DNA of 32,197 bases from Bacteroidota bacterium (lineage in GTDB: Bacteria; Bacteroidota; Bacteroidia; B-17B0; Aurantibacillaceae), in NCBI GenBank assembly GCA_025362395.1, contig JANYGK010000097.1:1-32197 (forward strand), written 5' to 3'. Below, piece by piece: positions 7,664-32,197 of the stretch. The notes beneath the pieces are model-generated. The model saw only the letters and a list, made by a program, of their open reading frames with translations. It made no database searches and had not been told where the DNA came from. Numbering within the stretch: the stretch's first letter is position 1; every line of letters starts with the position of its first letter. Made by a program: the position numbers and the translations under genes.

Positions 7664-10600
7664 ATGTTGCATCTGAACCCTTTTAAACATATCTTTTGTA
7701 TTAACAGCATACGTATTAGCCACTTTTACGTTATACTATTGTTGCTTTACTCTACCATAAATTTTTCGCAGGTTAAAAATGAGGATGAATTAAAAAAACA
7801 AGCAAGTGCTTATTTTGAAGATGAAGATTATAATTCATCCTATAAGCTTTATTCTCAATTAGTTTCGCTTTATCCTAAAGATCCTGTATATAATTATAGG
7901 CTGGGAGTGTGTATGCTTTACACGGAACCTGATAAGAAAAAACCATTTATGTATTTTCAAATTGCTCTGAAAATCCCTAATGAAGATTCGAAAGACGCCA
8001 AATTTTACCTGGCCAAAACCTACCATGTCAATTACCGGTTTGATGAAGCCATAAAACTCTATACAGAGTATAAACAAACAGCAAGTTCTTCATCCATCAA
8101 AAAATTACAGGTAGACAGGGAAATTGCCGCTTGTAAAAACGGGAAACGCTTGCTTTCCAATTTATCCGACCTTGTTATTATCAGTAAAAAACAGCTTAAT
8201 GAAGCAGATTACTTCAGGAGCTACGACATTAAAGATATTGGCGGAAAATTATTGGTAAAGCCCGATGATTTTAAAACAGGATACGATAAAAAGAAAAAAG
8301 ATAAATCGGTTGTTTACCTGCCCAGGAACGGAGAACGCGTTTATTTTTCAAGCTATGGCGACGGCGGCAGTAACGGAAGGGATATTTATTTTGTAAACCG
8401 TTTGCCAAACGGCAGTTGGAGCAAAGCACAGCCCATGCCCGCGCCAATAAATACTGAATACGACGAAGATTATCCTTTTTTACACCCTAACGGAAAAACA
8501 CTTTATTTTAGCTCAAAAGGCCATAATAGTATGGGAGGTTATGATGTATTTAAAACGACTTATAACACGGAAACGCAAAGCTGGAGTAAACCCGAGAACC
8601 TTGAATTCCCTATAAACTCACCCGATGATGATATACTATTTGTAACGGACTCGTTAGAAAAAACCGCTTTTTTCAGCACCGGTAGATACAGCCCTTACGG
8701 TAAAATTGATGTACTTAAAATTAGTACGGAACGAAGGCCTATGAATTTTGCTGTTTTAAAAGGCACCGTGGTAAAGGAAGACGTGACGCAAAGTTTATTG
8801 GCGAAAATTACGGTAAAAAACATGGCCAATGGCGAGATCATTGGTACATATAAGGCCCAAGAGAACGGCGATTATTATATGGAGCTGCCAAATGGCGGAA
8901 AATTTATTTTTACGGTAGAAACCCCCGGCCTTACAACACAGTCGGATGGCGTACAAATGCCTATCGCTTATTCTTTAAAGCCTTACAAGCAGCTTATTTC
9001 GTATGAGAAAAAAGTATTGAAGATCATTAATTATTTTGATGGACAAATTGCCGATGAAAACTACTCGATGATGATAGACCTGATCGAGAAAAAAGCAAAA
9101 TTGGAAGTTAACGAAAACGAGCCCTATAATAATAACCTGAAAGAAGTTCCTAAAAACGTAACTAATAAGGCGACAGATAAAACAAATTTAAATTCTGTAA
9201 GCACAAATAATCCCACTGCAAGCGGCAATGATGCAGCCGCAACTAAAACAAATACAAACAAAAATGTAACAAACGAGCAACTATTATCCTTAGCTAAAAT
9301 GGATGCTGTAGAAGCTGAAAACGACAGTAAAATATTAAAACAGGATGCACAGGAAGCATTTGATTTGGCAACTCAAAAAACAGCGGAAGCAGTTGCCATA
9401 CAAAAGCAGGTGGATGAGGCTGCGGCAAATTTGAACGCTATTACCAATGTTGCAAAAAAAGATGAAGAATCGGTTAAAATAAATCAGTTGAAAGAAGATG
9501 CTAAAACAGCCACTGCTATAGCAAACACTGCCACTAACCTCGCAAAAAAACTGGAAGTGGACGCCGACCAAAAACAAAAGGAGGCCGACTTAACCAATCA
9601 ATACATTAAAGAGCTGGAAATTGTTACTAAAAATAAAAACAATAAAGAAGCCCTTACTAAATTAGAAGAGATACAAACGCAGTTGGATGCTATATCAAAA
9701 CAACCGAATCAATCAGACGAATTAGTATCTTCTATTAAAGCTGAACTGGAGCTAAAACAAAACGAATTAAAAAAATCTGAAAAGAAAAATAATGAAATTG
9801 TAAGCGACATTAATTCCATTAAAACAGAATCAGGAACTCTTGAAACTGACCTTGCTAATGAGAATGACAAGTCATTGAAAGAAAATATTTCTGCTCAAAT
9901 CAGGGAATTAACAACTGATATAGATACTAAAAATAAAGAGCTTGATGCCAACAATCAAAAAATAGCAGGGTTAAAAAACCAGGTTGACGGCTTAAATAAA
10001 GAGTTGGAAATAGCTGCTGACATATTAAATGAAAACACAAGCGGCGCGGCTATTACCAATAATAAAGGTAGCGCAACACCATTAACCGGAATTGATAATA
10101 CTACCGGATCGAATAACACAACAGGAACTAATAATAGTACAGGATCAGAGATTAAAGGAACTGAATCTACAAGCCCGCTTTCGTATGAAGGCATTACAAC
10201 AAAATATGATGCGGAGATTAAAGGAAAAGAAATAGATAAAACAAACCCTAAGGAACTAACAGCTCAAAATGGTATTTTAAAGAATTATAATAAAGACATT
10301 GCAGATCTTGTTTCTATTGACAAAAACGAAGCTTCAAAAACGAAAGACGGTGTCGAAAAGAAAAAATTAAATAAAGAAATTAAAGAGCTGGAAAACCAAA
10401 AAGCAATTAATGATAAATTGATCACGGCAAATACTTCAGCTTTAAAGAAGATCGGGCCTGATGCCATTGCCGGTAATAATGCAAACCCAAACACTGCAGG
10501 CGATAACGGAAATACAACAAATCCGGGTAATACTAATTCAGGCATCACTACAAATACAATCGATGCAGTAAATGCTTCCAATACAAATACGACATCAGCA

Positions 10601-13600
10601 ATATCTTCTAGCACCAACGGTTTCGAAACAAACACAACCTCCGTTACAAACAACACCGCTCAAAATAATGCAGCTATTGAACCGATTAATACGTTTGTTG
10701 CCAATGATAACAGTGCTTATTTAAATGAGTTAGAGAAATTGAAAGCGGGTTTAAATGCAAATACGGGAGCAGCTACTCAGTTATTTTCTTATAATGGGTA
10801 CAAAGAAAATTCTTCTTTACTATTAAAACAAACGGCAGACAAAAAATTTGAAACGGCAAAACAAAATGAGATTGCTTTAAACACCCTTATTGCTTCTACA
10901 GAAACCAATATAAAAGCAAATACGGGAAATAAATCAACCGGTTTATTAAATGAAGCCGATGCCCTTGGTAATAAGGCTTTAGAGGAACGAAAAGAATCGG
11001 TAACAAAACAGGGAGTTGAAAAAGACGCGCTGTTAAAACAAGCGCAGGAAAATGAAAAACTGGCGGTAGATAAAAAACTGCAGGCATCGGGAGAACTGGA
11101 AAAAGAAAACAAAAATAAATTTGACGTAAATGCCTCTAACCTGGTTGAGCTTCAAAAATTAACGGGCGCAAAAACAAGCGATGACATTTCACAGGCTAAT
11201 ATGCTGACGGATGAGGCAGCTATTAATTACAAACAGGCACAAAAATTACGCACGGAAGCCAATTCTTATCCTGCAGGTGCTGCTAAACTTGGAGGATTGA
11301 GCAATGCGGAAGAGAAAGAAAATGAGGCATTGACCAAACAACAAAAAGCCATTGACATTTTATCGAAGGTTAATCCTTCCTATAAAGTTAAAACACCCGC
11401 CGGTAATAATGATCCTGCGGGAGCAATTACCTCTTTAAATAATGAGATCAATAAAACCTCTCAAACACAATTAGACGCTTATTTAGCGCTCAGTAAAGCA
11501 AACCAAAATGAATTAAAATTACAGGGAGATAAACTTGCTAAAAACCCGGCTTTTAATACGGAACAAAATAAGCCCGCACAAGATCTGAAAAATGAATCGG
11601 ATAAATTAAATAAAGATGCGAAAGCGTTTATAGGTCAATCGTTAACGACTACAGGCGCTTCAGAAAAAGCTAATTTATTACTGATGGCCAATGAACAGGA
11701 AATTAATGCCTTAAAAAAATTAAATGAAGCCGTTACCCTATTAACTAATTCGGGGAATACCCTTGCCGGCAATAATACAGCTAACGGTAACGTTACAACG
11801 CCTGAAAATACTCAAAACACAGGTAATGCCACTCAAAATACAACAAATACTAATGTAAGCAACAACTCCGGTAACACAACAGCATCTAACACCGGCAGCG
11901 GTAATAATAACACATCACAAAATGACAATAGCAACGCCGTAAACAATAACACGGGGGCAGACAATAAAAACGGGAATGCCGTAAAGCCTGAAACAACTTC
12001 TGCAAATAATACTAACACTTCCGTTACGGATGCAGGAAATACTAACGCTAATACTACAAACCCTGCCAATAATGCGGGTAACACTGCTGAAACCGGAAAC
12101 CCTACAACGAGTGCAACAAATTCAAACACCGTTATACCATCAAATAATACTACAGGTGATATATCATCTGAAATAGCAAACCTGAAAAACGGCTTAAACA
12201 ATTCAACTGAAAGCGGCTTAACTAATTTTAATACCTATACGAATACGGAAGCAATAAGCCTGAAAGAAAAAGCTTCCGAAAAAATTAATGCCGCTTTAAA
12301 TGAAGATAAAAACATAACCGCTTCTCTTGATAACGCGGCTCAACTGGCATTGGTAGTTAACGGAGCGCAACCGGTTACACAGGATGCTATTACAAATGCG
12401 GTTATGGAAGCTGAAAAAACTAATGATGCCGCTTATGAATTAAGAAAATCAGCAGTAGCTAAAACAGGGGAAGAAAAAGAGAAAGACCTGCAACAAGCAA
12501 AGGAACTTGAAACAAAAGCCATTGCTAAAAAAGTAGAAGCCGCGGGTAATCAGCAACGCTTAAATTCCGGCACGTTTGAAGCTAATACTAAGAGCCTTGA
12601 AGAACTGGCTGAGATGGCCAAAGGGAAAAATATAAGCGAATTAAGTACGGCCGACATGCAGCTGAATGAGGCAACCTTATATTTTAACCAAGCTCAAAAG
12701 TTAAGAGAAGAAGCTAATGCTTACCCTACAGATGCTGCTAAATTAGGCGGCTTTAGCAATGCCGAAGAAAAAGAAACGCTTGCATTGAATAAGCAAAAAG
12801 CAGTGCTTGATGTTTATAAAAAATATTTTTCGAATTATGTTTCTAAACAGGCAAAACCACAAGCGGCAAATCCTGAGGCAACCGCTAAATTAAATTCAAC
12901 AAAAACAAGCTTGGCAAGCAATAACCAAGCTCATATTGACGGGTTATTGTTATTGTCGCAAGCAGTTGAAAAAGAATATAAAAGCAGGTTGGTAAATTTA
13001 CCTGCTACACTGAAAACCGGTGATGCCGCTTTAAAAACAAATGCTCAGGGCCTTTATAAAAAATATCAATCAGCCTTAGTGCAGGCAACTAAAACAACTG
13101 ATGTAAATAAGAAAAAAGATTTTTTAATAGAGGCGAATAAAAACGGTCAAGCAGCTATTAACGCCTTAAGTCAAATAAATACTTCAGGAAATGCGGCGGT
13201 AGCAGATAATACCGGCAATACGGGTTTAGGAAACCAAACAAATAATACTACCGGGAATAATACGGCAGGAAATAACGGAAATCAAACTTCAGGGAATAAT
13301 AATACAACCGGAAATAACACGCAGGGAAATAATACATCAACCGTAAAAACAAATGCAGGTACTAGCGGAAATCAAGTTTCAGGAAATAATACGGTTAAAA
13401 ACAACAACACGGTAAATAACACCGGCGGTAATTCAAACACGCCCACCGTTAAATTAAAAGTAGAAGGGTTGGAAGTAAAAACAAATAACGCCTACACTGC
13501 CGATAAGCCTATACCTATTGACGAAAAAATACAGGACGGCTTAGTGTTTAAAGTACAGGTAGGCGCTTTTAAAACCACACTGCCAAACAATACTTTTAAA

Positions 13601-14698
13601 GGTTTAAGCCCTGTAATAGCGCAAACCACACCTAGCGGTTACATCCGTTACATGGCGGGTAATTTTGAAAAATATGCGAGTGCCAATGCTGTAAAAAATG
13701 ATCTGAAAAACTTAGGCTATGGCGATGCTTTTGTAGTTGCGTATTATAACGGTAAACGCATTAACCTCAACGAAGGGGTTGCAAAAGCCTTAGAAGCAGG
13801 ACAAGCAGTAGATGCCTCCACAGCGGCAAATACAAGTGCAGGCATAACGGCTAACTCTAATGTTCCAAAAAACACATTTACAAATAATACACCAAACCCT
13901 ACTGCATTGCCCGGCGATAACCAACCTGTAGAAATTACCAATGAGTTGGAAAAAATGAACGGGCTTTTATACACAGTACAAATTGGCGTATACTCTAAAC
14001 AGGTAACGCGTTCGCAATTATATAACTTAAGGCCAATTTACACAGAAAAATTACCGAGCGGCTTGTATCGCTACACTGCAGGCATCTATAACCAAACCGC
14101 TAAACTATTGGAAGACAAACGCAAAGTAGTGGACCTTGGCGTAAAAGATGCTTTTGTATCCGCTTATTATAATGCAAAACGAATTGCTTTTGCGGAAGGA
14201 CAAAAATTGCAAACAGAAAATAATAATTTAAAAATGGAAACCGAAAATCCTATTATTTTTTCGGGTGCAACAGCACCTGCTATTCAAAATACTACTAGTA
14301 ATACACCTGCCGTAACACCAACAACAAATGGCGTTACAAACACACCAAACGCAACGGCTTTTAATAACGGGGTTACTCAAAGCCCTATACCTACTGCAAA
14401 CAATGGAGTAAAAGCGGATGAAGCCGGGATTTCTTATAAAGTGCAAATTGGTGCTTATAAAAATCAGGTACCGAATGATGTTGCTACTAAATTTATGAGC
14501 ATTAAAACATGGCCGGTAAACAATGTGGTGATTAACGGGTTATTTATTTATACCATAGGAAATTTTAACGCGGTTTCTTTTGCTAAAAAATTAAAAGATG
14601 AAGCCGTTAATATAGGTGTAACCGATGCTTTTATTACCGTTTATAAAGACGGAAAAAAACTGTATGGAGCGGAAGCAAGCCAATACTTGAATAAATAA
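7664..14698 (+). CDS. Giant envelope protein: TPR, PD40 propeller, coiled coils, three SPOR domains
   Basis: A 2,344-residue exported protein. Order by rough residue: signal sequence (1-36); TPR-like helices (40-165); PD40/WD40-like propeller blades (215-353: VYFSSYGDGG, LYFSSKGHNSMGGYDVF, FFSTGRYSPYGKIDV); carboxypeptidase-regulatory-like beta domain (363-440); Lys/Glu-rich coiled coils (540-935); two diverged copies of a helical module of about 350 residues (1018-1365, 1500-1842) between Asn/Thr/Gly-rich linkers; and three SPOR-type domains (1960-2045, 2100-2185, 2257-2344), starting FKVQVGAF, YTVQIGVY and YKVQIGAY. SPOR domains bind peptidoglycan glycan lacking stem peptides. TPR-propeller-CRD is the order of the T9SS/gliding protein PorE, where an OmpA domain binds peptidoglycan. 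A periplasmic scaffold linking an outer-membrane complex to the wall is therefore inferred. The start is uncertain: TTG 7661, ATG 7664 and TTG 7667 are all possible, with an in-frame TAG at 7652. Confidence 0.88.
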   Translation: MLHLNPFKHIFCINSIRISHFYVILLLLYSTINFSQVKNEDELKKQASAYFEDEDYNSSYKLYSQLVSLYPKDPVYNYRLGVCMLYTEPDKKKPFMYFQIALKIPNEDSKDAKFYLAKTYHVNYRFDEAIKLYTEYKQTASSSSIKKLQVDREIAACKNGKRLLSNLSDLVIISKKQLNEADYFRSYDIKDIGGKLLVKPDDFKTGYDKKKKDKSVVYLPRNGERVYFSSYGDGGSNGRDIYFVNRLPNGSWSKAQPMPAPINTEYDEDYPFLHPNGKTLYFSSKGHNSMGGYDVFKTTYNTETQSWSKPENLEFPINSPDDDILFVTDSLEKTAFFSTGRYSPYGKIDVLKISTERRPMNFAVLKGTVVKEDVTQSLLAKITVKNMANGEIIGTYKAQENGDYYMELPNGGKFIFTVETPGLTTQSDGVQMPIAYSLKPYKQLISYEKKVLKIINYFDGQIADENYSMMIDLIEKKAKLEVNENEPYNNNLKEVPKNVTNKATDKTNLNSVSTNNPTASGNDAAATKTNTNKNVTNEQLLSLAKMDAVEAENDSKILKQDAQEAFDLATQKTAEAVAIQKQVDEAAANLNAITNVAKKDEESVKINQLKEDAKTATAIANTATNLAKKLEVDADQKQKEADLTNQYIKELEIVTKNKNNKEALTKLEEIQTQLDAISKQPNQSDELVSSIKAELELKQNELKKSEKKNNEIVSDINSIKTESGTLETDLANENDKSLKENISAQIRELTTDIDTKNKELDANNQKIAGLKNQVDGLNKELEIAADILNENTSGAAITNNKGSATPLTGIDNTTGSNNTTGTNNSTGSEIKGTESTSPLSYEGITTKYDAEIKGKEIDKTNPKELTAQNGILKNYNKDIADLVSIDKNEASKTKDGVEKKKLNKEIKELENQKAINDKLITANTSALKKIGPDAIAGNNANPNTAGDNGNTTNPGNTNSGITTNTIDAVNASNTNTTSAISSSTNGFETNTTSVTNNTAQNNAAIEPINTFVANDNSAYLNELEKLKAGLNANTGAATQLFSYNGYKENSSLLLKQTADKKFETAKQNEIALNTLIASTETNIKANTGNKSTGLLNEADALGNKALEERKESVTKQGVEKDALLKQAQENEKLAVDKKLQASGELEKENKNKFDVNASNLVELQKLTGAKTSDDISQANMLTDEAAINYKQAQKLRTEANSYPAGAAKLGGLSNAEEKENEALTKQQKAIDILSKVNPSYKVKTPAGNNDPAGAITSLNNEINKTSQTQLDAYLALSKANQNELKLQGDKLAKNPAFNTEQNKPAQDLKNESDKLNKDAKAFIGQSLTTTGASEKANLLLMANEQEINALKKLNEAVTLLTNSGNTLAGNNTANGNVTTPENTQNTGNATQNTTNTNVSNNSGNTTASNTGSGNNNTSQNDNSNAVNNNTGADNKNGNAVKPETTSANNTNTSVTDAGNTNANTTNPANNAGNTAETGNPTTSATNSNTVIPSNNTTGDISSEIANLKNGLNNSTESGLTNFNTYTNTEAISLKEKASEKINAALNEDKNITASLDNAAQLALVVNGAQPVTQDAITNAVMEAEKTNDAAYELRKSAVAKTGEEKEKDLQQAKELETKAIAKKVEAAGNQQRLNSGTFEANTKSLEELAEMAKGKNISELSTADMQLNEATLYFNQAQKLREEANAYPTDAAKLGGFSNAEEKETLALNKQKAVLDVYKKYFSNYVSKQAKPQAANPEATAKLNSTKTSLASNNQAHIDGLLLLSQAVEKEYKSRLVNLPATLKTGDAALKTNAQGLYKKYQSALVQATKTTDVNKKKDFLIEANKNGQAAINALSQINTSGNAAVADNTGNTGLGNQTNNTTGNNTAGNNGNQTSGNNNTTGNNTQGNNTSTVKTNAGTSGNQVSGNNTVKNNNTVNNTGGNSNTPTVKLKVEGLEVKTNNAYTADKPIPIDEKIQDGLVFKVQVGAFKTTLPNNTFKGLSPVIAQTTPSGYIRYMAGNFEKYASANAVKNDLKNLGYGDAFVVAYYNGKRINLNEGVAKALEAGQAVDASTAANTSAGITANSNVPKNTFTNNTPNPTALPGDNQPVEITNELEKMNGLLYTVQIGVYSKQVTRSQLYNLRPIYTEKLPSGLYRYTAGIYNQTAKLLEDKRKVVDLGVKDAFVSAYYNAKRIAFAEGQKLQTENNNLKMETENPIIFSGATAPAIQNTTSNTPAVTPTTNGVTNTPNATAFNNGVTQSPIPTANNGVKADEAGISYKVQIGAYKNQVPNDVATKFMSIKTWPVNNVVINGLFIYTIGNFNAVSFAKKLKDEAVNIGVTDAFITVYKDGKKLYGAEASQYLNK
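10712..13185 (+). repeat. Duplicated coiled-coil module inside the giant gene
   Basis: Copy A (10712-11755) and copy B (12158-13185) encode matching helical modules, separated by an Asn/Thr-rich linker (about 11756-12157). The best-conserved core is QAQKLRTEANSYP (near 11233-11271) in A and QAQKLREEANAYP (near 12688-12726) in B, each followed by AAKLGG and SNAEEKE. The order of flanking blocks is the same in both, with moderate divergence. An ancient internal duplication followed by drift is the simplest explanation. Confidence 0.75.
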
Positions 14699-15111: not shown

Positions 15112-15912
15112 ATGAAAAAAAATAGTGTATTAGCCGCGTTTTTAATGGTTGCTTTTATGAGTTGTCAAAAAAATGCCATAACAGGCCGCAGGTCTATCGA
15201 TTTTGTATCGGAGCCTGAAATGATTGGGATGAGTGTTACCGAATACGGTAAATTTTTATCAACCAATCCTCCCTTACCCGCAAGCGATTCGCGGGTAGTA
15301 ATGGTAAGAACTATTGGAACAAGGATACAGCAGGCTGTAGAAAAGTATTATGCCGATAAAGGCTTAAGCAACCAGTTGGCAGGTTATAAATGGGAATTTA
15401 ACGTAGTAGATCAACCAACAGTAAATGCCTGGTGTATGCCGGGAGGTAAAGTAGTAGTTTATAGCGGCATTTTACCTGTAACACAGGATGAAGCAAGCCT
15501 TGCAATAGTTATGGGACATGAAATAGCACACGCCGTAGCTAAACACGGCAGCGAACGCATGAGCCAGGGAATGATCGTTCAGTTTGGGGGGGCCGCACTA
15601 TCAGTTGCCACTCAACAAAAACCGGCCCTTACACAAGCTTTGTTTCAACAATCATACGGTGCAGTATCTCAATTGGGAATACTGAAATACAGTCGCACAC
15701 ACGAAACAGAAGCCGATAAAATGGGGCTTATATTTGCCGCCATGGGAGGCTACAACCCCGAAGTAGCAATTGCTTTTTGGGAAAGAATGTCTAAAATGAA
15801 TACCGGGCAAAAACCAATGGAGTTATTAAGTACCCACCCAAGCGATGAAACACGCATAAGTGCCTTAAAAGCCTTTATGCCGGAGGCTAAAAAATATTAT
15901 AATCCAAAATAA
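15112..15912 (+). CDS. M48 family zinc metalloprotease, lipoprotein
   Basis: A 266-residue exported zinc endopeptidase of the M48 family (LoiP/BepA-like), the group that handles envelope protein quality control. The N-terminus is a lipoprotein signal with lipobox cysteine C18 (AFMSC), then the family motif ITGRRS. HEIAH (136-140) supplies two zinc histidines and the catalytic Glu137. The third zinc ligand is in ETEAD (about 198-202), with D202 matching the conserved Asp. A conserved THPSDETRI block near the C-terminus also fits. It has no TPR tail, so it is shorter than BepA. Lipidation implies periplasmic or outer-membrane location. No terminator separates it from clpS, only a weak hairpin. 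Confidence 0.92.
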   Translation: MKKNSVLAAFLMVAFMSCQKNAITGRRSIDFVSEPEMIGMSVTEYGKFLSTNPPLPASDSRVVMVRTIGTRIQQAVEKYYADKGLSNQLAGYKWEFNVVDQPTVNAWCMPGGKVVVYSGILPVTQDEASLAIVMGHEIAHAVAKHGSERMSQGMIVQFGGAALSVATQQKPALTQALFQQSYGAVSQLGILKYSRTHETEADKMGLIFAAMGGYNPEVAIAFWERMSKMNTGQKPMELLSTHPSDETRISALKAFMPEAKKYYNPK

Positions 15913-20373: not shown

Positions 20374-21651
20374 ATGAAAGTGCTATCCTTTATATGTGTA
20401 TGGATGTGTTCAGTTTGCTTAACGGCGCAAACTACCGCAGACTTAAAGAAAAAATTTGACACTTACCTCAGCTTTAACGGCTCTTTAAATTCGTATGTTT
20501 CCTTCAATACAAATTCTGTTTCTATACTAAATGCCGGTACACCTGAATTTACGGTGTTTGCAGACGAAATACCAACCTTCGCCTTAATTCTTAAAAATAT
20601 AAAACCGGCAGAGTTCATCGCTATTTATAACCGCAAACAAAATAAACACCTTTCACAAAAACAACTGGACAGCTTAAAAAATAAGTATTCCGGCAATACT
20701 AAGTCAGCCTATAAGCAGCCTGCTTTAAAAGGCAAAAGAATTGCCCTTGATCCCGGTCATTTTGCAGGAGATATGCAAACCGCACGTGTAGAACAAAAAT
20801 TTATTGAGTTCCAACCGTCAGCCTTCAATAACTTAAAAGATACGGTTCGGTTTAACGAAGGCTCTCTAACCTATCAAACAGCCGAAATTTTAAGGCAGCG
20901 ATTGTTGGAACAAGGCGCCATAGTAATGGTTACAAGGCCAAAACAAAACTATACGGCTTTTCAAATAACCTACGATGAATGGATCACAAAGAGAAAAAAA
21001 ACGGTATTGGATTCCTTATTAAAAGAGAACGTTATAGACGCGAAACGTTATACTAAATTAATGAATTTTGGAAAAGACAAACTGTTTTGGGAGTTTTTCC
21101 GTGATTTTGAATTGATGGAACGTTCAAGGATCATTAATGAATTTAAGCCTGATGCCACCCTTATTATTCATTATAATGTAGATGAAAAAAATACGGATTG
21201 GCTGAGCCCCTCAACCAAAAATTTTACCATGGCTTTTATCGGCGGCGGTATGACCGGCGATAATTTTTCGAAACCCATTAATAAAGTACATTTTTTAAGG
21301 TTATTATTAACCGATGAATTAACGGAATCAGAAAAGCTGTCATCGCTTACGGTAAATCAATTCAGTAAAAAGTTATCTATTCCCGTTGCTCAAAAAAACG
21401 ATGCCGATTATTTAAGGGACAATTGCATGAAAACGCCGTCGAACGGGGTATTTTGCAGGAACCTGGCCTTGTGTCGCACTATAAATTCTGTTTTAGTATA
21501 CGGCGAATGCCTTTACCAGGATAATGTAAAAGAGTGTGTTAACTTAACCAAATGCGATTATGAAGTGCAGGGGCAAAAGGTTCCTAAACGCATTTATGAA
21601 GTTTCCGACTGCTACTATAACGCAATAAATGATTATTTTAGTAACCCTTAA
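20374..21651 (+). CDS. N-acetylmuramoyl-L-alanine amidase (Amidase_3)
   Basis: A 425-residue exported zinc amidase that removes stem peptides from peptidoglycan glycan strands. It has a signal peptide (MKVLSFICVWMCSVCLTAQ). The catalytic domain begins at about 120 with RIALDPGHF, where H129 is a zinc ligand; E162 (FNEGSL) and H266 (IIHYNVDE) are the other probable ligands. A glutamate in VYGECL near the C-terminal end is a candidate catalytic base. The domain holds an insertion of about 60 residues between strands (190-255), longer than in minimal AmiC enzymes and perhaps regulatory. The response-regulator gene follows after 12 bases. Amidases of this class produce the denuded glycan that SPOR domains recognise, and three such domains are encoded in the giant gene nearby. 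Confidence 0.9.
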   Translation: MKVLSFICVWMCSVCLTAQTTADLKKKFDTYLSFNGSLNSYVSFNTNSVSILNAGTPEFTVFADEIPTFALILKNIKPAEFIAIYNRKQNKHLSQKQLDSLKNKYSGNTKSAYKQPALKGKRIALDPGHFAGDMQTARVEQKFIEFQPSAFNNLKDTVRFNEGSLTYQTAEILRQRLLEQGAIVMVTRPKQNYTAFQITYDEWITKRKKTVLDSLLKENVIDAKRYTKLMNFGKDKLFWEFFRDFELMERSRIINEFKPDATLIIHYNVDEKNTDWLSPSTKNFTMAFIGGGMTGDNFSKPINKVHFLRLLLTDELTESEKLSSLTVNQFSKKLSIPVAQKNDADYLRDNCMKTPSNGVFCRNLALCRTINSVLVYGECLYQDNVKECVNLTKCDYEVQGQKVPKRIYEVSDCYYNAINDYFSNP

Positions 21652-22634: not shown

Positions 22635-23042
22635 TCAACCTGAAAAAGAAAAAGAACACAGCAGCGCCACCTGGGTCCGGTTTATGTTTTTAAAATACCC
22701 CACCGTGTTATAATTACTGTTTTGTAAGGTTCCGTCTTCTTTTACATACCCAATGGTATTATAATTATTGCCTTGAACGGTTCCGTCCGGTTTAATATAA
22801 CCAATGGTATTATAGTTGCTGTTTTGCACGGTACCGTCCGATTTAATGTAACCGATGGTATTATAATTACTGTTTTGTACAGTACCATCCGCTTTTATAT
22901 AACCAACGGTATTATAGTTACTGTTCTGTACAGTCCCGTCTTCTTTAATGTAGCCTTCGGTATTGTAATTACTGTTTTGAATAGTTTGAGAATACGCTAT
23001 CCCGCTAAGCAGCATACAAAGAAATAAATAGATAGATTTCAT
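22635..23042 (-). CDS. Small secreted 17-residue-repeat protein, probably frameshifted at its 3' end
   Basis: A 135-residue protein with a signal peptide (MKSIYLFLCMLLSGIAYSQ) followed by six tandem 17-residue repeats (20-121) of the form TVQNSNYNTxGYIKxDG. The regular Asn/Tyr/Gly spacing suggests a repeating beta structure; small proteins with this look are labelled 5-fold beta-flower in some Bacteroidota annotations, a match I make from memory. After the last repeat the frame reads NINRTQVALLCSFSFSG. Adding one base in the run of five A (plus-strand T at 22687-22691) would instead give HKPDPGGAAVFFFFRLN and stop at 22630-22632, a more family-like ending. The gene is therefore probably frameshifted, or the base run is misread. 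Its neighbour rimO is unrelated. Function is unknown. Confidence 0.75.
   Translation of the reverse strand: MKSIYLFLCMLLSGIAYSQTIQNSNYNTEGYIKEDGTVQNSNYNTVGYIKADGTVQNSNYNTIGYIKSDGTVQNSNYNTIGYIKPDGTVQGNNYNTIGYVKEDGTLQNSNYNTVGYFKNINRTQVALLCSFSFSG
22680..22985 (-). repeat. Six 51-bp tandem repeats within the small secreted protein gene
   Basis: Six direct copies of a 51-bp unit encode the 17-residue repeats. Third-position differences between copies show they are not a very recent expansion, yet copies 2 to 4 are very close at the protein level. Confidence 0.9.
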
Positions 23043-27495: not shown

Positions 27496-30400
27496 ATGAT
27501 AAAAAAACTACCATATCTGATCCTTTTCGTTTTGTTATCAAAACTGAGTAATGCAGCTTGCCCGCAGATTTATGACTACCTGGGCAATTTATCTTCCAAC
27601 CCTACCTTTATTGATTGTACCGGTTCGGGCAGTTATAATATGAATATTTCATCCAATGCAGGGTGGGGCGCCTATACTATTATTTGGGGTGATGGTACCC
27701 CGAACACCGTTGCTGGGGGATATACGGCTAATACATTTGTAAATCACACCTATACTTCCGGCAGCCCTACAAGCTATACGTTAACATTATTAATTCCAAG
27801 CTCATCCTGCACTTTAACCGCGACAGTGATAATGGAAAAACCGGTTAATTCTTCCATTCAAATTCCTGTAGGCGGCATTACCACTGCCTGTGCGCCTAAA
27901 GCGTTACAATTTGTAAATGCAAGTACGGATGTTTCTGCAACCACTACGTTTACATGGAACTTCGGCGACGGTACTGCTCCTGTGGTCTTTAACGCTTCTA
28001 ACGCGGGGCAAACGGTAACGCATACCTATAACCCCGGAACCGTTAATTGCCAAACTGCTGTTACGCTTTCTGCCATGAATTTTTGCACCAACATTCCAAC
28101 CATTGCCAACTTTAATCCCATACAAATTTATGATATTGATAATGCGGCCATAACACCCTCCGCTTTTATTAAATGTTTTCCCGATAATACATTTACCTTC
28201 AACAATACAACTAACAGAAACTGCGTGCCGCAGGGGAATACCTTTCAACGCCAGGAAAGATGGAACTTAGGCGATCATTGGGGTTTAGGCCGCGATTCTA
28301 TTATTGACTGGAGGCCATGGCCACCTACTGCCCCTATTACAATTACCTATCCTTCTGTAGGTAATTATACCATACAACTGCAGGATAGTAATTTATGCGG
28401 GATAGACGTCATTGCCTTAACCGTTAGTATTGTGAACCCGCCAACTGCGGGAGTTGTAGGGCCTACCGGGCCTGTTTGCGCGGGAACAGCCGTTACCTTT
28501 ACCAATACAAGTTCCACAGGCTATTCCTATAAATGGGATTTTGGAGTAGGTGCCGGCTATGTACCCAAACCTTTCGGTCCTCAATCATTTACCTATACCA
28601 ACGCGGGCACGTATACTATTTCGGTAGTTGCTTTAATTGCGGGGGGCGGGGCAGCCTGTTCAAGCACAGCACAAACAGTTGTAACTATTTTAGCGGCACC
28701 GGTGGTCAATTTTTCCGTCTCTCCAAATATAGGATGTAACACTATAACAGGCGCGGTATTTACCGATAATACTACCGGTGGAGCCACATGGAACTGGAAT
28801 TTCGGCAACGGTAATACCTCTGCAACCCCTGTGCCTGCCGCACAAAATTATACAGCGGTAGGAACCTATACTGCTTCCCTTACGGTTACTTCTACCAACA
28901 GTTGCGTAAATACGTATTCTACCTTAATACATGTTTATGCCACACCTAACGCTTCATTTACTACAGCGTCAGCCTGTGTGGGCTCTGTGGCTACTTTTTC
29001 TGACACTTCAACAAGCGCACCCGGGGATCCTGTTACTTCATGGAACTGGAATTTCGGGGATGCCTCCCCCACTGCAACCACAACTGTACAAAACCCAAAT
29101 CACACCTATACCATTCAAAATACCTATACAGTACAATTAATAGTTAATACAGCCAATTGCACAAATACCGTTACATTACCTATTACGATTAATGTAAGGC
29201 CAACGGCAAATTTCACAATGACTCCTTTGTCAGGCTGCCCTACCCTAACCGTTAACTTTACCAATACTTCGCTCAGCGCTACCTCCTATGCATGGAATTT
29301 CGGTAATGGGGCAACATCCACCGCTACCAATGTAAGCCAAAGCTTTACCAATACATTAACCGTTAATAAATCATATACTATAAGCTTACTGGCCCAAACA
29401 GGCTTAGGCTGTTCAGATACTAAAACGGCAAGCATTACTGTTTTTCCTAAGCCTGCAGTTACTTTTACATTAAATGCCCTTGCGGGATGCTCGCCTGTTT
29501 CAGCTACTTTTACAAATACTTCTTCAGGCGCAACGAGTTATTTATGGACGTTTGGTGATAATACGTCAAGCGGAACCGTATCCACTATATTATCACATAC
29601 GTATACTAATGCTACTTTGCTCATTCAAACCTATACTGTACAATTGGTTGCCACCAGCAGCAATGGCTGTAAAGACAGTACGAGTTTAGGCGTAACGGTT
29701 TACCCGCGACCAATTTTTAACTTTACGATGGTTCCCAATGCAGGATGTTCGCCTGTAAATGTCAATTTCCCAACCGTGCTCGGAGCTGTTAATTACCAAT
29801 GGAATTTTGGTGACGGAACCCCCTTAAATTTTTCGCCCAACCCAACTCATACATTTACAAATACAAGTACTATTGATGTAACTTACAGCGTTCAGCTGGT
29901 AGCATCCAACGCGTTTAGCTGTATAGATACAACTTACGGCTACCCGGTTGTTTACGGAAAGCCTCTACCGAATTTTTCTTTGTCGCCTAACTCAGGCTGC
30001 TCTGCTTTACCCATAACGTTTACCAATACCAGTACTTTTTCGTCTACTTATGTATGGCGGTTTGGAGACGGTAATACAAGTACAAGTGTAAATCCTGTCC
30101 ACACCTATACCAATACAAGCAATACAAGCAACCAAACCTTTACAAGTTCCTTAATAGCTATAACGGTTCACGGCTGTAAAGATTCTGTTACCAATACTAT
30201 TTTGGTATTTCCTAAACCAAAAGCCGCCTTTAATGTAGATACGCCAAGCTGCTCCCCTAAATTGCTTCATTTTATAAACAGCTCCATAGGCGCCGGCTCT
30301 TACGAATGGAATTTTGGCGGAGCAACCACATTTAATATTAATGAACAGTACCAATTCATTAATAATTCGGGCGCTAACATAACCAACACTGTAAGGCTGA

Positions 30401-31266
30401 TTGCTATTTCAGGAAACAGCTGCAGGGATACATTATTAGTTAATATTATTGTACATCCTAAACCTGAATTTACCATTATTGCAAATCCCGATTCGGGATG
30501 TACAGCGCTCACCGTTAATTTCCCTTCCATTGCAGGGGCCTCGTCTTATCAATGGAACTTTGGAGACGGTACGTTTTCAGGAAGCACCGCTCCTACTAAA
30601 GTCTTTGTAAACAATACATCCTTCGATCAAATATTTACGGTTAAGCTGATTGCCTTTAACAGTTATGGCTGCGCAGATACATCATCTAAAATCATTAAAG
30701 TATTTGCAAAGCCTATAGCCTTGTTCCAAGCCAACCCCAATACAGTATTTGTACCTAACGATCCTGTGCTGTGCAGTAACCTCTCGTCGGGCGCGGTGAG
30801 CTATGAATGGGACTTCGGAGATCATACAACTTCTACGGAAGTAAACCCTTCGCATAATTACCAACAGGCAGGTTTATACCAAATAATTTTAGTTGCCACT
30901 AACAGTAAAGGTTGTAAAGATAGGTTTGACCTTCCCTCTAAAATAATTGCGCAGCTGGAAAGCGGTGTTGATATTCCGAACGCGTTTTCGCCCAATGCAA
31001 ATGGCAGTAACGGTGGTGCGTACAACCCTAAGGATGTTAATAATGATGTGTTTCACCCGGTAATAAGCGGAGTTGCTAAATATGAATTAAATATTTTTTC
31101 ACGTTGGGGAGAATTATTATTTGTATCAAAAGATATAGATATAGGTTGGGACGGATATTATAAAGGAAAGCTCTGTACACAGGACGTGTATGTATGGAAA
31201 ATAAACGCCACAACGATCGATGACAAAAGAATACTTAAAACGGGTGACGTACTTTTACTAAGATAA
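27496..31266 (+). CDS. Large PKD-repeat surface protein with T9SS type B (CHU_C) domain
   Basis: A 1,256-residue secreted protein. The signal peptide MIKKLPYLILFVLLSKLSNA is followed by about 13 PKD domains, recognised by repeated xWNFGDGxx and xHTYTN motifs (for example WNFGDGTAP, WNFGNGNTS, WRFGDGNTS, WDFGDHTTS). Two repeats are degenerate: RWNLGDHWG and EWNFGGATT. The last 100 residues (from 1158) form the gliding-motility-associated type B sorting domain: IPNAFSPNANG, then YELNIFSRWGELLF, DIGWDGYYKGK and CTQDVYVWKI. Type B cargo is exported by T9SS and often stays cell-attached with a PorP/SprF partner. No PorP gene is visible; instead a TPR-PD40 protein begins 13 bases later. The start lies 12 bases behind rnpB. 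An adhesin or matrix role is inferred. Confidence 0.93.
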   Translation: MIKKLPYLILFVLLSKLSNAACPQIYDYLGNLSSNPTFIDCTGSGSYNMNISSNAGWGAYTIIWGDGTPNTVAGGYTANTFVNHTYTSGSPTSYTLTLLIPSSSCTLTATVIMEKPVNSSIQIPVGGITTACAPKALQFVNASTDVSATTTFTWNFGDGTAPVVFNASNAGQTVTHTYNPGTVNCQTAVTLSAMNFCTNIPTIANFNPIQIYDIDNAAITPSAFIKCFPDNTFTFNNTTNRNCVPQGNTFQRQERWNLGDHWGLGRDSIIDWRPWPPTAPITITYPSVGNYTIQLQDSNLCGIDVIALTVSIVNPPTAGVVGPTGPVCAGTAVTFTNTSSTGYSYKWDFGVGAGYVPKPFGPQSFTYTNAGTYTISVVALIAGGGAACSSTAQTVVTILAAPVVNFSVSPNIGCNTITGAVFTDNTTGGATWNWNFGNGNTSATPVPAAQNYTAVGTYTASLTVTSTNSCVNTYSTLIHVYATPNASFTTASACVGSVATFSDTSTSAPGDPVTSWNWNFGDASPTATTTVQNPNHTYTIQNTYTVQLIVNTANCTNTVTLPITINVRPTANFTMTPLSGCPTLTVNFTNTSLSATSYAWNFGNGATSTATNVSQSFTNTLTVNKSYTISLLAQTGLGCSDTKTASITVFPKPAVTFTLNALAGCSPVSATFTNTSSGATSYLWTFGDNTSSGTVSTILSHTYTNATLLIQTYTVQLVATSSNGCKDSTSLGVTVYPRPIFNFTMVPNAGCSPVNVNFPTVLGAVNYQWNFGDGTPLNFSPNPTHTFTNTSTIDVTYSVQLVASNAFSCIDTTYGYPVVYGKPLPNFSLSPNSGCSALPITFTNTSTFSSTYVWRFGDGNTSTSVNPVHTYTNTSNTSNQTFTSSLIAITVHGCKDSVTNTILVFPKPKAAFNVDTPSCSPKLLHFINSSIGAGSYEWNFGGATTFNINEQYQFINNSGANITNTVRLIAISGNSCRDTLLVNIIVHPKPEFTIIANPDSGCTALTVNFPSIAGASSYQWNFGDGTFSGSTAPTKVFVNNTSFDQIFTVKLIAFNSYGCADTSSKIIKVFAKPIALFQANPNTVFVPNDPVLCSNLSSGAVSYEWDFGDHTTSTEVNPSHNYQQAGLYQIILVATNSKGCKDRFDLPSKIIAQLESGVDIPNAFSPNANGSNGGAYNPKDVNNDVFHPVISGVAKYELNIFSRWGELLFVSKDIDIGWDGYYKGKLCTQDVYVWKINATTIDDKRILKTGDVLLLR

Positions 31267-31279
31267 ATTAATAAAGCTT

Positions 31280-32197
31280 TTGAATAGATTTTTATATATC
31301 TCCATTTTCTTGTTTTCTTTACAGCTTGTCGGCCAAACAAAGGTTAACTCAAAACTGTATTCGAAAGAACTTAAAAATGCAAATTTATATTTTGAAACCG
31401 AAGATTATGCCAATGCCATAAAAGCTTACCGTAAGGTTTTGGCTGTAGATCCTAATCTTGAGACCGCCAATTTAAATACTGCCATTAGCCGTATAAAACT
31501 TAATATGTCCGCCGACTCAGCGTTATGGTATTTATCGAAAGTAAACACAAGTAAATTTCCGGAAGCAGAATTTTATTTTGGCATTCTCTACCACCAATCT
31601 TCTAATTTTGATGAAGCAACAAACCATTTAAACCGGTACAGGGAAATACCCGTTAAAATAAGGACCATTACGAATGAGGAGGTTGATTATTATGTATCGT
31701 GCGTAAAAAACGCAAAAGAATTTACGGGACAACCGCACCGGTCTGTTATAAAAAATTTAGGAAATAAAATAAATTCGGTATATGATGATTATGTGCCTTT
31801 AATTACTCCCGATGAAAGCGTTTTATATTTTACATCGCGCAGAAACGGCGGTGTAGGGAACTTGCAGGACGGTGACGGCAAGTATTATGAAGATGTGTAC
31901 GTGTCGCAAAAAATGAATGACGGTTCATGGGGAGATCCAAAAAACATAGGCCCTCCTATTAATACAAACACACATGACGCGTGCGTGGCATTAAGTTTCG
32001 ACGGTAACCAAATGATTATATACAGAACCGCGGCAGATATGCTTACCGGCGATCTTTATTTGTGCCATACGGATTACTCGGGGTGGACTCCACCGCAAAA
32101 GCTCGGCCCGGAAATTAATACGCCTTTCATTGAAACAAGCGCGTGTTTCAGTACCGATACAAGTGTTATTTATTTCAGCAGCAATAAGCCCGGCGGC
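31280..32197 (+). CDS. TPR-PD40 envelope protein, 3' end beyond the window
   Basis: The first 306 residues of a secreted or periplasmic protein, open to the right edge. Start is TTG at 31280, giving a signal peptide (MNRFLYISIFLFSLQLVGQ); an in-frame TAA at 31259 and no ATG before residue 60 support this. TPR-like helices (about 25-110: NANLYFETEDYANAIKAYRKV, FYFGILYHQSSNFDEA) are followed by PD40 propeller blades (VLYFTSRRNGG, GDLYLCHTD, VIYFSSNKPGG). This is the beginning of the TPR-propeller order of PorE and of OmpA-PD40 proteins; whether an OmpA or SPOR domain follows is unseen. It starts 13 bases after the PKD protein, so the two are probably an operon encoding surface cargo and its envelope partner. 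Confidence 0.82.
   Translation, partial: MNRFLYISIFLFSLQLVGQTKVNSKLYSKELKNANLYFETEDYANAIKAYRKVLAVDPNLETANLNTAISRIKLNMSADSALWYLSKVNTSKFPEAEFYFGILYHQSSNFDEATNHLNRYREIPVKIRTITNEEVDYYVSCVKNAKEFTGQPHRSVIKNLGNKINSVYDDYVPLITPDESVLYFTSRRNGGVGNLQDGDGKYYEDVYVSQKMNDGSWGDPKNIGPPINTNTHDACVALSFDGNQMIIYRTAADMLTGDLYLCHTDYSGWTPPQKLGPEINTPFIETSACFSTDTSVIYFSSNKPGG

Follow-up and report, generated by a model that had tools for sequence, protein, structure and literature searches.

The locus and its long open reading frame

The window analyzed here, a stretch of 32,197 nucleotides, is the entire contig C12 of a 4.08-Mb genome of a Bacteroidota bacterium, and positions 7664-14698 of its forward strand hold a single uninterrupted open reading frame encoding a protein of 2,344 amino acids, which we call the giant protein. 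From the N- to the C-terminus, the chain consists of a signal peptide, a TPR region, PD40 blades, a carboxypeptidase-regulatory-like domain (CRD), a long tether and three SPOR domains. The sequence-only reading of this DNA had proposed this order, and it was borne out in outline by profile searches and alignment. An assembly or frame artefact was ruled out by the full-length open frames of relatives found in other assemblies.

The signal peptide (7664-7771, +; residues 1-36, ending in ...NFSQ) lacks the lipobox Cys; its site was placed by eye, and the signal peptides of the relatives were judged in the same manner. Cys residues are present in the chain only at positions 12, 83 and 157, and thus none lies at the cleavage site. 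The Pfam hits of the chain include no T9SS sorting domain, OmpA is absent from the Pfam matches of the full-length chain up to an E of 1, and no library that we searched has a name for it. An O-glycosylation pattern occurred once in the giant protein compared with 7.0 times in shuffled sequences, and such modification is thus given no support.

The head

The TPR region (7772-8158, +; residues about 37-165) stays below the Pfam TPR cut-off, and its profile matches the TPR of PP5 among PDB sequences with an E of 0.001. The PD40 region (8312-8737, +; residues about 217-358) contains three recognisable blades and matches Pfam PD40 with an E of 4.6e-9, a match that is above the cut-off also in the scan of the whole chain (5e-8). 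The CRD-like domain (8750-9013, +; residues about 363-450) was assigned on the basis of a CarboxypepD_reg match of 17.3 bits, for which the cut-off is 32.3, and of the alignment with paralogues. The TPR and CarboxypepD_reg matches of the 2,344-aa protein itself thus fall below the Pfam cut-offs; when the heads of 15 relatives were searched at E ≤ 0.01, PD40 was found in all 15, TPR_16 in 11 and CarboxypepD_reg in nine.

We aligned six giant proteins with seven paralogues from the genome studied here; the ends of these paralogues match OmpA-tailed models, the Pfam OmpA check covering the one on contig C89. Both groups have the TPR region, the CRD and, between the two, the last three blades, and the first two blades are absent from the giants; by this alignment, the recognisable blades would be the last three of a PorE-type propeller. 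The next segment (9011-9103, +; residues 450-480) is aligned with the first OmpA_C strand of the paralogues and may be a remnant of that domain; just past this apparent strand, the giants part from their OmpA-tailed paralogues. Of the NCBIfam families, CHU_0125 and PorE alone are matched by all 15 heads. For the head studied here the two scores are practically tied (96.5 bits against a cut-off of 620 for CHU_0125, and 94.2 bits against 600 for PorE); the PorE match spans positions 289-479 of a 648-position profile, and in the scan of the whole chain PorE alone was listed, with 90 bits.

The AlphaFold model of the head, made from an alignment of six close relatives, is weak (pLDDT 46). Its TPR part matches TPR folds, with BepA as the best (Z 10.4, rmsd 8.1 over 111 residues). 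The blade region was not resolved; the matches listed for it are beta domains of Tc proteins and include no propeller, and the confidence of the model makes this comparison meaningless.

The tether

Between the head and the first SPOR domain lies a tether of about 1,480 residues, for which the sequence-only reading had described about 1,500 residues of coiled coil and Asn/Thr linkers. The length and the linkers, in which N, T, G and S abound, agree with that description; the plain coiled coil does not, because the tether is modular and includes two homologous modules. A helical, coiled-coil-like domain (9281-10054, +; residues 540-797, 258 aa), whose helicity was judged from sequence, comes first, and its profile was detected in 22 of the 24 family members searched, with L059 and L066 as the exceptions. 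It is followed by module 1 (10784-11854, +; residues 1041-1397) and module 2 (12221-13330, +; residues 1520-1889), each of about 360 residues and 32% identical to each other, whose homology was detected by profiles and missed by a self-comparison with blastp. Neither module has a match among PDB sequences at E ≤ 0.01. Since one relative of 2,987 aa (L053) carries three copies of the module, the tether length can change by whole modules; many more distant members have one recognised module or none. In 44 proteins the distance from the head to SPOR1 ranges from 911 to 2,091 residues with a median of 1,372.5; in 24 of these proteins, the head was taken to end at residue 480. This length fits the predicted spanning of the periplasm.

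Three SPOR domains of ancient origin

SPOR1 (13538-13777, +; residues 1959-2038), SPOR2 (13961-14200, +; residues 2100-2179) and SPOR3 (14426-14677, +; residues 2255-2338) score 108, 104 and 96.5 bits, respectively, with an iterated profile that was seeded by these same three repeats. In the whole chain, Pfam SPOR (PF05036) reaches 17.1 bits, below its 21-bit cut-off, and a genome search with this model found four places, none of them within the window. When the C-terminal 388 residues are searched alone, the score rises to 27.4 bits, over the cut-off, and the same piece gives a match with an E of 0.01 or less in every one of 15 relatives (best 9.7e-17). Among PDB sequences, the SPOR profile has CwlC as its sole significant relative (E 1.2e-5; next 0.32). 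The model of the C-terminus (pLDDT 51, again from an alignment of six close relatives) has its best part in SPOR3, and the first three fold matches of this domain are all SPOR domains: CwlC 1x60 (Z 6.6, rmsd 2.2, 73 residues aligned), RlpA 6i05 (Z 6.5, rmsd 2.3, 70 aligned) and RlpA 6i09 (Z 6.4). A fourth match that looks unrelated, 6ozd, is tied with them at Z 6.3, and the tool warns that a Z under 8 can reflect a common arrangement. No SPOR entries are among the matches listed for the SPOR1 and SPOR2 models. Structure prediction thus agrees with a SPOR fold for the last repeat, and it did not recover the N-terminal propeller.

The available part of PMC6895207 names Q270 and R309 of RlpA among the glycan contacts; a basic patch of RlpA consists of R302, R309 and R311. 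We assigned the equivalents of Q270 and R309 by eye, and that of Q270 also through the CwlC alignment. In SPOR1, Q1965, F1969 and R1995 are kept in all 15 proteins of one set and in all 30 of a larger one. In SPOR2, Q2106 and R2136 are both kept in 15 of 15, and in the larger set the Gln is found in all 30 and the Arg in 29. In SPOR3, the Gln (Q2261 here) is present in 29 of 30 proteins and the Arg in one of 30, and the giant protein itself has Ile at the Arg position. The position of R311 is occupied by a basic residue in at most one of the 15 proteins for each SPOR domain, with one His, in SPOR3. The SPOR identity of the C-terminal domains, as judged from the C-terminal Pfam match, the relationship to CwlC and the kept Gln, is well supported, as had been claimed.

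A tree was built from the 90 SPOR domains of the same 30 proteins as in the residue counts (14 of the first set and 16 of 20 distant relatives) together with nine other SPOR domains of this genome; left out were ten close relatives, the fragment L070, and L177, L178, L179 and L186, which have another number of SPOR domains or a weak third copy. Although it rests on domains of only about 80 residues, SPOR1, SPOR2 and SPOR3 form three clades of 30 without any intruder, with supports of 0.80, 0.997 and 0.92, respectively. Because the copies form three separate clades, a recent repetition was ruled out and the triplication predates the sampled families. Judging from these alignments, SPOR3 has diverged in a fixed manner, with loss of the Arg. 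The idea of multivalent binding, put forward in the sequence-only reading, needs refinement, because the copies are anciently distinct and one of them lacks the Arg.

Occurrence in related genomes

In a search for relatives, all 41 genomes matched the protein, many of the matches being PD40 paralogues. When 30 sequences were searched for SPOR domains, 24 full-length proteins and the fragment L070 were found to carry exactly three; the exceptions are L051 with two (cut at a contig end), L065 with one weak copy, and L063, L067 (cut at a contig end) and L068 (a different paralogue) with none. L063 and L065, two class-level relatives, keep the head and the long, charged, helical middle and have NfeD and FloA downstream; one ends without SPOR and the other with one weak SPOR-like end, and the tail thus differs between lineages.

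In an even draw of the class (80% completeness), 153 of 396 genomes match the three-SPOR profile at E ≤ 1e-25, and the other 243 have no match at this threshold, which more diverged giant forms could escape. Of the 145 matches listed, 127 lie in open frames of 1,500 aa or more (median of all 145, 2,064). Twenty long-frame relatives were picked from 17 families, and the pairing of head and SPOR tail recurs in every one of them: all 20 match the head profile and have at least two SPOR domains, 19 have three or more, L177 has two, and the third copy is weak in L178, L179 and L186. A draw of the phylum, which differs in scope, in completeness (95%) and in threshold (1e-10), gave matches in 30 of 247 genomes, most of them within short frames; two genomes, G000 and G084, showed the giant form, and G080 has a 743-aa frame with two SPOR domains.

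Paralogues in the same genome

The genome also encodes four TPR-PD40-SPOR proteins of normal size (656-763 aa) on contigs C109, C95 and C100 (twice). They match the head profile, and the iterated profile finds one C-terminal SPOR domain in each; Pfam at E ≤ 0.01 finds PD40 in them, and not SPOR. They differ from the giant protein in having extra blade-like repeats and no long tether. OmpA-tailed PorE-like proteins are kept in the genome as well, for example on contig C89, whose protein has a better NCBIfam PorE score than the giant (477.7 bits), itself under the cut-off of 600; no protein of this genome passes that cut-off. Since SPOR- and OmpA-tailed paralogues are present in one genome, SPOR and OmpA_C seem to be interchangeable as the wall end of a shared head, with the giant protein as the extreme form. 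It had been stated that SPOR domains stand in place of OmpA; this is right for the chain, which has SPOR and no OmpA match, and does not extend to the genome, in which OmpA-tailed PorE-like proteins are retained.

The genome encodes further SPOR proteins. A protein on contig C5 combines Amidase_3 with a SPOR domain. On contig C29 (G000; L149), there are a 454-aa SPOR protein and a 573-aa protein that looks by eye like an outer-membrane barrel and has a SPOR-like match at 433-515; the start of contig C115 (L150), which is not joined to C29, holds an open reading frame cut by the contig end with two SPOR domains, and these proteins possibly constitute another system between outer membrane and wall. 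On contig C25 (L148:5272-6117), a 281-aa SPOR protein adjoins a PorP_SprF gene.

Genes around the giant protein

The downstream neighbour, 413 bp past the giant gene, encodes an M48 metalloprotease (15112-15912, +; Pfam Peptidase_M48, 1.8e-35), whose NCBIfam matches to BepA and LoiP are far under the cut-offs. Among 43 other giant loci, 19 have an M48 gene in the same orientation, starting 204-651 bp downstream; the other 24 have none within 3 kb (in L041 it is 5.4 kb off), some of the loci ending early. Within 3 kb of the giant gene, and with the same reservation for loci that end early, plsY was found in 11 of 43, a protein of 1,500 aa in nine, NfeD in seven and FloA in seven. In L064, L066 and L185, the gene order is 1,500-aa protein, plsY, giant, M48, NfeD and FloA. 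The conserved protein of about 1,500 aa (L058:9689-14206; L066:12776-17284) usually comes directly before plsY and has no Pfam match; none was found in this genome, an empty answer that shows little.

Farther downstream in the window, an Amidase_3 protein is encoded at 20374-21651 (+), 5.7 kb from the giant gene; no relatives of it are labelled near the giants in loci L041-L070. A 135-aa protein at 22635-23042 (-) is composed of near-identical NSNYNT-GYIK repeats and matches Pfam Bflower_2, a five-fold beta-flower. At 27496-31266 (+), there is a PKD-repeat protein with T9SS sorting matches just under the cut-offs (CHU_C, 26.5 against 27; TIGR04131, 31.7 against 35), followed at 31280-32197 (+) by a TPR-PD40 PorE-like open reading frame that is cut by the contig end; the two are likely a pair of cargo and anchor.

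Comparison with known systems

The available text of PMC7192894 describes PorE as a lipoprotein that carries OmpA_C and whose propeller has five blades, and PorE is bound to PorP and peptidoglycan according to the accessible parts of PMC9143113 and PMC7192894. The giant protein shares with PorE of the P. gingivalis T9SS (NF052230) the order of TPR, PD40 and CRD, a periplasmic location and a C-terminal wall-binding end, as predicted for the giant, and differs from it in lacking both the lipobox and OmpA_C and in having three recognisable blades, three SPOR domains and a tether of about 1,480 residues. Because OmpA_C and the lipobox are absent, two blades fewer are seen by alignment, the score is far under the cut-off and the protein on contig C89 is the better match, we rejected a PorE orthologue, and the equivalence to PorE that had been suggested is not upheld.

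With CHU_0125, the Pal-like outer-membrane protein of C. hutchinsonii (NF053607), which has 656 aa and one OmpA_C-like domain in the available text of PMC5891637, it has in common the TPR and PD40 head and, by prediction, a wall-binding end; it differs in its size and its SPOR end, and its score is 96.5 bits against a cut-off of 620. By the criteria tested, the giant protein is in neither family, and it probably works like their members. As in FtsN, DamX, DedD, RlpA and CwlC, its SPOR domains carry the glycan-contacting Gln. Those proteins are far smaller than the giant and are not known to have a TPR/PD40/CRD head. Most SPOR proteins are built of a transmembrane anchor at the N-terminus, followed by a disordered linker and the SPOR domain, according to the available part of PMC6895207. 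All in all, the sequence-only reading was partly confirmed: the domain order and the SPOR identity stood, the propeller (three recognisable blades), the middle (modular) and the replacement of OmpA (in the chain, not in the genome) were corrected, and the equivalence to PorE was not supported.

In literature searches whose scope excluded most subscription papers, we found none combining a SPOR domain with PD40, with Bacteroidetes and type IX secretion, or with tetratricopeptide and Flavobacterium johnsoniae. Papers on the SPOR domain, Bacteroidetes and peptidoglycan include, by their titles and the starts of their abstracts, none on the giant protein; the phrase "SPOR domain" is not among the matches listed for Bacteroidota, gliding and outer membrane, and the available portions of PMC12611786 and PMC12635249 hold nothing bearing on the head or on SPOR.

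Proposed function

The reading that we prefer, tentatively and with somewhat less than even confidence, is that the giant protein is a soluble, secreted periplasmic tether between an outer-membrane partner and peptide-free glycan. The TPR/PD40/CRD head, being of the PorE/CHU_0125 kind, would dock on the outer-membrane partner; a modular chain of 900-2,100 residues, helical and Asn/Thr-rich, would supply the reach; and the three SPOR domains would hold peptide-free glycan processed by amidases. SPOR1 and SPOR2 may contact the glycan via the Gln and Arg known from characterised SPOR domains, and the contact by SPOR3 may be weaker or different. In this manner the outer membrane would be tied to the wall where the cell constricts and where the wall is otherwise remodelled, which we consider the likeliest places because peptide-free glycan is enriched at the division septum; the role would be one in envelope integrity or constriction. 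The evidence on the SPOR domains, the likeness of the head to PorE and CHU_0125, the joint presence of both ends in all 20 long-frame relatives, the amidase with a SPOR domain on contig C5 and the lack of a T9SS sorting domain argue for this tether. Against it stand the neighbours plsY, NfeD, FloA and M48, which are not division genes, the occurrence of the giant form in two genomes only of the phylum draw, the low confidence of the head fold and the Z under 7 of the SPOR3 fold matches; furthermore, since 243 of the 396 class genomes have no match at E ≤ 1e-25, the job would not be universal. A more specific form of the proposal, which we regard as rather unlikely, is a class-specific device drawing in the outer membrane at division, in which the head would sit on an outer-membrane complex, three specialised SPOR domains would read freshly stripped septal glycan, and the tether would serve as a ruler tuned by gain and loss of modules.

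The same domains could serve a general integrity anchor of the CHU_0125 or Pal type, acting all round the cell, with SPOR as a wall-binding module and not as a septal address. The top NCBIfam match of the head is CHU_0125, in practical tie with PorE, one head is common to SPOR-tailed and OmpA-tailed paralogues, and loss of CHU_0125 impairs outer-membrane integrity, giving a leakier outer membrane and more vesicles (available text of PMC5891637); yet the head score is far under the CHU_0125 cut-off, and the available part of PMC6895207 describes known SPOR proteins in division or morphogenesis; we hold this anchor to be rather improbable. We are similarly doubtful of an accessory of T9SS or gliding, whose head would bind a PorP/SprF-like barrel or a part of the T9SS ring and whose SPOR tail would fix the machine or its type B substrate on the wall in the way put forward for PorE. 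Besides the relation of the head to the NCBIfam PorE model, it can appeal to a genome with SprA (split over two contigs), 13 PorP_SprF genes, of which five adjoin PorE-like genes as read by eye, and T9SS cargo in the window. SprA is present in 384 of the 396 class genomes, and the three-SPOR profile matches 152 of these and one of the 12 without it; thus 152 of the 153 matching genomes have SprA, but SprA is nearly everywhere and its co-occurrence does not discriminate. Because the profile finds nothing at E ≤ 1e-25 in 232 of the 384 genomes with SprA, a core part of T9SS is unlikely unless diverged forms escape this threshold, and the giant protein is probably none; in addition, a better PorE match is on contig C89, and none of the 13 PorP_SprF genes lies on this contig. 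A scaffold for wall enzymes or for outer-membrane quality control, partnered with the adjoining M48 protease, seems very unlikely to us: the close, same-strand M48 gene found here and in 19 other loci speaks for it, but the 24 loci without one within 3 kb, some ending early, and a neighbourhood that also includes plsY, NfeD and FloA speak against it.

The coupling of the outer membrane to the wall in these bacteria, above all at division, is to our knowledge poorly known. The giant protein is a fixed, old architecture of about 2,000 residues that is present, as traced by its SPOR tail, in more than one in three of the class genomes drawn (153 of 396), and together with its paralogues it suggests that, in a single genome, the same head can end at the wall in either SPOR or OmpA_C. 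It makes the coupling between outer membrane and wall testable, through three domains whose contact residues are predicted, through a head of a kind for which the type of partner is known, and through relatives that differ naturally in length.
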